A stretch of DNA of 46,739 nucleotides, from the NCBI GenBank assembly GCA_003599485.1, contig QZKM01000041.1, positions 1 to 46,739 on the forward strand, read 5' to 3'. Shown in pieces: positions 10,176 to 11,087 of this stretch. Origin of the DNA: Gammaproteobacteria bacterium (GTDB lineage Bacteria > Pseudomonadota > Gammaproteobacteria > SURF-13). Every line of letters starts with the position of its first letter. Position 1 is the first letter of the stretch. Position numbers and translations under genes: made by a program. Under the pieces are notes generated by a model. The model saw nothing but the letters and a program-made list of their open reading frames with translations, had not been told where the DNA came from and searched no databases.

Positions 10176-10415
10176 CTAGGCGACGTTCTGCATGCGATTA
10201 GCGAAATCACGGCCGGAGGTGGCGGAGGGCAAAGGCTTGCCATCCTTCCGATACAACTCTATGGCCTCTTCGACAATCAAACAAAGGTCATCGAAAACTT
10301 GCCTCTCGTCATCGCCGTGACAACCGCCGAAAATCAGCCCGGGCGCGCTCCCAACATAGCACTGGTCTTCTTCAGACCATTCGACGATTTTTGCGTATTT
10401 AGCGCTGTCTTTCAC
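10176..10415 (-). CDS. hicB: HicB-family antitoxin
   Basis: 79 residues. HicB antitoxins carry a partially degraded RNase H fold that occludes the HicA toxin. The sequence YAKIVEWSEEDQCYVGSAPG, the GGCHGDD segment and the helix EEAIELYRKDGKPLP match this domain. I see no separate DNA-binding domain after it (only about 15 residues remain), so this is a short HicB form. Its ATG overlaps the hicA stop by 4 bases, showing translational coupling in the usual toxin-first order. The unit sits just downstream of the intron-bearing tRNA gene. The stretch from hicB to rimO (10087-10175) shows nothing further. Confidence 0.88.
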   Translation of the reverse strand: MKDSAKYAKIVEWSEEDQCYVGSAPGLIFGGCHGDDERQVFDDLCLIVEEAIELYRKDGKPLPSATSGRDFANRMQNVA

Positions 10416-10651: not shown

Positions 10652-10965
10652 TGGTGGGCCCGGAAGGACTCGAACCTTCGACCAAGGGATTCACTTTTTC
10701 CCGCCATTTCCAGCGGGAGTGGACTATCTCATCACCCGCGAATACATCGCTCAGGGTGCGGGACGCTCAAAGCCTGTGATTAAGGACACTCAAGCCCTCA
10801 GGTAGTCTCTGCGCCTTCCGGAAGTGTACTCCCGGCTTGGCTCAGGGTTGCCATCAGCCGTTAACTGGAAGGTTTCCCTGAATTCATCCCGTTCATTTCA
10901 TATCTTTCAATATGAACGCACCATTTTGATGAGTCCCCTGCTCTAACCAACTGAGCTACAGGCCC
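10652..10965 (-). tRNA. ileX: tRNA-Ile2 (CAU anticodon, lysidine type), interrupted by a group I intron
   Basis: Read on the minus strand, the exons form a complete cloverleaf. The acceptor GGGCCUG (from 10965) pairs with CGGGCCC, then discriminator A and an encoded CCA (10654-10652). The D arm is GCUC-AGUUGGUUA-GAGC, the anticodon stem GGGGA/UCCCU, the loop CUCAUAA, and the T arm GAAGG-UUCGAGU-CCUUC. The anticodon C34-A35-U36 is at 10931-10929. The GACUCAUAAUC loop context and following UUGGUCG match E. coli ileX rather than methionine tRNAs, so C34 is expected to be changed to lysidine by TilS for AUA decoding. The exon break falls between U36 (10929) and A37 (10691), the same place as in Azoarcus. 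It lies downstream of rpoD on the same strand and upstream of hicA. Confidence 0.93.
10692..10928 (-). ncRNA. Group I self-splicing intron, Azoarcus-like (IC3-type), 237 nt
   Basis: The 237-base insertion between U36 and A37 of tRNA-Ile2 has group I hallmarks. The 5' exon ends in U and the intron ends in G (10692). A GGUG internal guide pairs with the exon end CAU and the first intron base C to form a short P1 with a U-G wobble. A P2 hairpin (GUUCAUAU...AUAUGAA) follows. A core segment contains GAUGGCAACCCUGAGCCAAGC, close to the P4-P6 region of the Azoarcus intron. The P7 strands are AGAGACUACC (10810-10801) and GAUAGUCC (10728-10721), and a P9 hairpin has CCCGC/GCGGG. There is no open frame, so no homing endonuclease. 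Similarity to the Azoarcus tRNA-Ile(CAU) ribozyme was recognised by eye from memory, not by alignment. Confidence 0.9.
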
Positions 10966-11087
10966 GTCATTCTATACCTCAGTGATGCCATCCCTGGCGT
11001 TACTTCATCTTGCTTGCAAGCTCCAGCCCAGCCATCCTTAGCTGGGCGCTCGCTGCTTCGCAGCTCGCCCAACTGAGCTACAGGCCC
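10947..11087 (-). repeat. 19-bp direct repeat of the tRNA 5' end around a ~103-bp palindrome-rich spacer
   Basis: GGGCCTGTAGCTCAGTTGG occurs twice on the minus strand: at 10965-10947, where it begins the functional tRNA, and at 11087-11069, where the tRNA sequence stops. The 103-base spacer (10966-11068) is rich in hairpins: GGGCG-A-GCTGC-GAA-GCAGC-GAG-CGCCC, then GCCCAGC paired with GCTGGGC, and the small palindromes GCTTGCAAGC and GCCATCCCTGGC. A TATTAT -10-like hexamer stands a few bases before the outer copy, so the tRNA transcript may start near there and carry the partial copy in its leader. The layout suits an insertion or slippage event that duplicated the 5' end of the gene. Confidence 0.75.

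Follow-up and report, generated by a model that had tools for sequence, protein, structure and literature searches.

A stretch of gammaproteobacterial DNA 46,739 nucleotides long (the window in the following) carries a tRNA-Ile2(CAU) gene that is broken within its anticodon loop. The question raised by this locus is whether the interrupting sequence is an intron that is spliced out in order to provide the tRNA, and how such an intron came to reside there.

The split gene and its surroundings

The whole split gene occupies 314 nt (10652-10965, on the minus strand as are all features of the window given below). The 5' exon comprises the first 37 nt of the tRNA and ends in CUCAU with U36 in standard numbering (10929-10965), the 3' exon extends from A37 to an encoded CCA (10652-10691), and the 237-nt insert lies between U36 and A37, inside the anticodon loop (10692-10928). 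As had been read from the letters in a first-pass annotation, the exons join perfectly across the insert, giving a 77-nt tRNA with the loop CU-CAU-AA that is folded by ARAGORN once joined. Run on the window with default settings, ARAGORN missed the split gene entirely, and with introns allowed it misplaced the splice and called a tRNA-Gln(CTG).

The assignment of the host as tRNA-Ile2(CAU), also proposed in that annotation, is borne out by the tRNA body, which is Ile2-like and not Met-like, with the acceptor strand GGGCCUG and the pairs C4-G69 and C5-G68. These two pairs are read by lysidine synthetase. A gene for this enzyme, TilS, is present in the assembly (181 bits, no stops) as well as in five members of the family to which the window belongs, and the one further CAU tRNA seen in the assembly (L008) is an elongator Met with the acceptor strand GGCUAUG.

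Upstream of the tRNA, and not part of the intron, lies a copy of a genome-wide repeat (10966-11087) whose first 19 nt (11069-11087) duplicate the tRNA 5' end. The repeat contains hairpins and a CCAGGGATGGC-like motif and has 11 matches in all in the genome (L223-L231); copies with a 19-nt tRNA 5' duplicate precede the genes for Ile2, Arg(CCG) and Met (here two tandem copies), and other copies lie away from tRNAs. The 19-nt duplicate was considered as a one-sided repair scar of intron homing, a reading that was rejected, as the duplicate heads a repeat with ten further matches and the same repeat with tRNA 5' duplicates stands before tRNA-Met and tRNA-Arg. On the other side, between the tRNA and rimO, a HicA toxin gene (Pfam PF07927; 10412-10609) is overlapped by an open reading frame in the position of HicB that has no Pfam match (10176-10414). 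In three genomes of one genus (G002, G003 and G004) rimO starts close behind the tRNA and leaves no room for this pair.

An ORF-less group I intron with a conserved core

The covariance model of group I introns, RF00028, matches the insert over its full length (10941-10700, model positions 1-253 of 253) with 82.6 bits (E 1.3e-19), the gathering score, which is the curated cut-off, being 50 bits; the insert is the sole group I intron of the 1.69-Mb assembly. An endonuclease reading frame was sought in the intron and none was found, the longest stop-free stretch being 41 codons. The covariance search suggested in the first-pass annotation has thus come out in favour of a group I intron, and the parts it had recognized, namely a P1 guide, P7 strands, a P4-P6-like core, a terminal G and no endonuclease, are all recovered on the structure drawn for the window.

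In this structure, which was drawn by hand on the window sequence and counted on 44 gammaproteobacterial relatives, P1 (10919-10931) pairs the exon bases CAU with the internal guide GUG, extended by CA/UG, so that U36 forms a U-G wobble pair at the 5' splice site in 44 of 44 relatives. P2 (10897-10916) is a hairpin of 8 bp with a GAAA loop. All core helices, P3, P4, P6, P7 and P8, are present: P3 is formed by the strands 10887-10891 and 10759-10763, the P4-P5-P6-P6a domain occupies 10813-10881, the guanosine-binding helix P7 pairs GACUA (10803-10807) with UAGUC (10722-10726), and P8 lies at 10733-10758. Between P7 and P3 an extra, P7.1-like arm (10773-10802), with CCUG/CAGG as its outer and AGGGC/GUCCU as its inner helix, constitutes a 30-nt insertion relative to the Rfam consensus. 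The 3' end is built by P9.0 (CACU/AGUG), enclosing P9 with a GAAA loop, followed by the terminal G (10692-10721). A further helix, P8a, can be drawn on the window but is paired in only 28% among the relatives and is rejected as a helix of the family.

Over the 44 relatives 95% of the cells are paired, compared with 34-44% when the partners are slid by 1-3 columns, a percentage that leans towards the drawn structure because this was derived from one of the counted sequences. Firmer evidence comes from two-sided changes, which are found at 30 of 70 pairs in 300 cells, compared with 21 pairs and 95 cells in shuffles. The covarying helices are P2 (two-sided changes at all eight pairs, 98% paired), P6a (five of seven pairs), P8 (three pairs, 100% paired), P9 (five pairs, 95% of cells paired) and the inner helix of the arm between P7 and P3 (three pairs, 100% paired). 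P9.0 is paired in 99% of cells. P4 is mostly invariant, and the exon-guide pairs of P1 as well as P3 (both in 44 of 44), P5, P7 and the outer helix of the arm never vary and hence carry no covariation information; the terminal G is likewise invariant. Invariance of the P1 exon-guide pairs, P3, P7 and the terminal G is as would be expected under selection for splicing.

Distribution and structural classes

An exact-pattern scan of a collection with one genome per species matched at least 119 stretches, and among the matches listed 104 parsed records, including a few duplicates between collections, contain tRNA-Ile2 introns at U36/A37. These introns are 202-321 nt long and all end in G. Pattern matches in Patescibacteria and Margulisiibacteriota were rejected as Ile2, being tRNA-Asn. 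The same site is thus interrupted in at least about 100 gamma- and betaproteobacterial loci, and where the first-pass annotation saw a longer relative of the Azoarcus intron standing by itself, the insert is one member of a common set in which 237 nt is a typical length. The window intron is of an ordinary kind and widespread among relatives.

By the sequence that follows P7, three structural classes were set. Class A, which contains the window intron, is gammaproteobacterial with the CCUG...CAGG arm (at least 78 loci after removal of duplicates). Class B, mostly of 264-269 nt, is found in Burkholderiales with a GGGUG...CACCC arm (at least 13 loci). Class C, of 202-207 nt, is betaproteobacterial and has AGACUAGACGG without an arm (at least seven loci); we take it to be the Azoarcus kind. 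In Burkholderiales classes B and C are observed at the same tRNA site with the same upstream gene, which suggests replacement or repeated occupation of the site.

Ile2 group I introns have already been reported in Acidovorax and Burkholderia, in a passage of PMC8450103 that names no gammaproteobacterial members outside Burkholderiales. Residing in the same tRNA, these introns probably correspond to the 264-nt Burkholderiales class, which also possesses an arm between P7 and P3, but one unrelated in sequence to that of the window (GGGUG...CACCC) and in other hosts. Group I introns in tRNA genes are reported more widely in cyanobacteria, alpha- and betaproteobacteria; the cyanobacterial introns of tRNA-Leu(UAA) and tRNA-fMet share with the present one the small group I type and the location in the anticodon loop, but reside in other tRNAs and other hosts (PMC4033280). 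A description of class A was not found in the literature searched.

Descent and transfer of the intron

As tRNA-Ile2 adjoins rpoD in many gammaproteobacterial loci, a linked host gene is available for comparison with the intron. Across 44 loci, intron and RpoD distances correlate with a Mantel r of 0.64, a value reached in none of 2000 permutations, and the two trees have 12 of 41 splits in common, where label shuffling gives a mean of 0.2. A single minor conflict between them has support, and the deep nodes of the intron tree lack resolution. Judged from these sequences, the intron mostly follows host descent. The alternatives left by the first-pass annotation, horizontal movement or old descent, apply jointly, in that an old family has undergone some horizontal movement.

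The class A intron is sometimes lost and sometimes transferred. The family of the window, which in the collection is its whole order with six genomes, has the intron in three of the six, and in one genus it is present in G003 and absent from G002 and G004. The rpoD gene of G003 is 94% identical to that of the intronless G002, while the introns of G003 and G001, a member of another genus (rpoD 79%), are 96.6% identical. G003 and G001 are also linked by a 574-bp alignment (86%) that spans the split tRNA and DNA upstream of it; about 300 nt upstream of the G003 tRNA match G001, and rpoD and the sequence just downstream of the tRNA match G002. G003 thus appears, from these alignments, to have acquired from another genus the tRNA with its intron and adjoining upstream DNA.

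A free-standing HNH endonuclease gene at related loci

In G003 a small HNH protein is encoded between rpoD and the tRNA on the opposite strand. Among the matches listed, an HNH gene, intact or decayed, immediately precedes the intron-bearing Ile2 gene in about 12 of 76 class A loci. The homologues show 57-63% identity, with one weaker and additional decayed pieces, and in one locus (L109) the reading frame looks interrupted. At Ile2 loci, every HNH match is antiparallel (divergent) and is located 65-645 nt upstream of the intron. Upon clustering of open frames, this was the only recurrent upstream family that resembles a mobility gene, the others being rpoD, its shadows in other frames, and local neighbours.

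The nearest named families of the protein are phage HNH endonucleases; its identity is deduced from PHROG matches, invariant residues (HH, N, H and cysteines) and, for an intron-encoded form, a (weak) Pfam HNH match. In the PDB no sequence relative was found, and a fold search gave nothing significant, T4 endonuclease VII being best with E 0.76. Homologues with 34-44% identity are encoded inside tRNA-Asn(GUU) introns of Patescibacteria, 540-630 nt long and located between U35 and U36. Group I introns of this Patescibacteria tRNA were observed in L081, L098, L100, L120, L131, L132, L138, L143, L151 and others.

Free-standing endonucleases that serve ORF-less introns have been reviewed for phages as collaborative or trans homing, with F-CphI and the psbA intron as a case in which, as here, an ORF-less group I intron is accompanied by a separate endonuclease gene (PMC3984707). 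In contrast to the phage systems, the hosts are cellular bacteria, the interrupted gene is a tRNA gene, the endonuclease is predicted and absent from the window, and the HNH family is also encoded inside the Patescibacteria tRNA-Asn introns. An ORF-less intron linked to an endonuclease gene of fixed place and orientation is found in the relatives only. By analogy, the linkage between HNH and Ile2 suggests trans homing, and it is close to an even chance, if slightly below it, that the gammaproteobacterial Ile2 introns spread with a free-standing divergent HNH gene of which the same family is intron-encoded in Patescibacteria tRNA-Asn.

For the window itself, it is conceivable, though we rather doubt it, that the intron of its lineage arrived as a transferred cassette of tRNA and intron by trans homing and that the free-standing HNH gene has since been lost. 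Such an arrival would concern the origin and upkeep of the intron and is compatible with splicing. The mosaic locus of G003, with its intron and upstream DNA like G001 and its rpoD and downstream sequence like G002, would fit, as would the HNH gene carried there and its remnant in G001, the uniform distance and orientation of the HNH matches, and an alignment search of 274 genomes of the host's taxonomic class, in which the lone HNH match sits at the intron-bearing Ile2 locus of G041. However, neither an HNH gene nor a recognizable remnant was found at the window locus, the similarity of the window intron to those of G001 and G003 is about what RpoD predicts (z 0.3-0.4), and cleavage of the tRNA gene by HNH is predicted only. 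The HNH link consequently says more about the family than about the window. In the rpoD-tRNA interval of G001 (L214), the HNH remnant contains an inserted restriction-modification pair of an MT-A70 methylase and a BglII-type endonuclease.

Relation to the Azoarcus intron

The first-pass annotation had called the intron Azoarcus-type, which holds for the tRNA and the U36/A37 site and fails for the structural class. The 205-nt class intron of the Azoarcus BH72 pre-tRNA-Ile(CAU) is likewise ORF-less, has a terminal G and uses a GUG guide to pair with the exon CAU, whereas the window intron has 237 nt, the covarying 30-nt arm at 10773-10802 in place of the compact form without it, and a different sequence after P7. 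In this comparison the 202-207-nt betaproteobacterial introns served as a stand-in, with Azoarcus itself represented by mentions in the literature (PMC3984707; PMC4033280).

That the window intron is a longer direct derivative of the Azoarcus class, recently passed on from betaproteobacteria, is very unlikely. The shared tRNA and site would agree with such a passage, but the arm, the sequence after P7 and the P9 region differ, the 202-207-nt introns are all in betaproteobacteria among the matches listed while the class of the window is gammaproteobacterial, and the shallow groups of the latter class agree with RpoD.

The only Ile2 gene found and its predicted processing

No second Ile2 gene was found in the assembly: a BLAST search with the joined tRNA recovered both exons, and all remaining matches were weaker ones, 79-80% identical, to other tRNAs. 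With a completeness of 96% and no fMet tRNA recognized, the tRNA set of the assembly is incomplete, and a gap could hide a second Ile2 gene. In the 274 evenly sampled genomes of the taxonomic class, with unsplit Ile2 recognized by exact pattern, 11 genomes have split Ile2, 75 unsplit and none both, a pattern which argues that the tRNA can be supplied only if the split gene is spliced. A twelfth split-gene match (G192) was rejected as a chance match before tRNA-Asn. A second intact tRNA-Ile2 gene, which would have spoken against the first-pass annotation, is accordingly seen neither in this genome nor in the 11 intron-bearing genomes of the class. In some bins (L042/L118, L076/L135, L097/L136; G006) two contigs each carry the 3' end of an intron-bearing Ile2 gene, and two split copies may be present in one bin.

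Taking together anatomy, conservation, covariation, the search for a second gene, TilS and distribution, the insert is very probably a functional group I intron; it has no ORF and interrupts the only tRNA-Ile2(CAU) gene that was found. The notion of a decaying, non-splicing insertion in a cell that relies on a different Ile2 gene has only the incompleteness of the assembly in its favour and is highly improbable given the intact core and exons, the covariation of the family and the lack of a second Ile2 gene here and in ten other intron-bearing genomes.

For the functional intron, splicing and its order relative to modification are inferred as follows. In the folded precursor the anticodon, CAU at the end of the 5' exon, would pair with the guide GUG, guanosine bound in P7 would attack after U36, and U36 would then attack after the terminal G, whereby the exons are joined. 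Located within the anticodon loop and paired with the anticodon, the intron would prevent TilS from forming lysidine on C34 until it has been spliced out.

Implications

An essential tRNA would thus become usable only after RNA self-splicing and subsequent lysidine modification, a processing order that is testable. As tools of the ARAGORN type do not model the intron, they miss or misname the split gene, and many proteobacterial genomes seem to lack tRNA-Ile2 as a consequence. The part worth pursuing is the link with HNH. If it is real, the family would be a natural example of an intron that travels with a separately encoded endonuclease, with a fused form in another phylum, and the free-standing HNH gene and its fused form in Patescibacteria would represent both stages of the assembly of a mobile intron.
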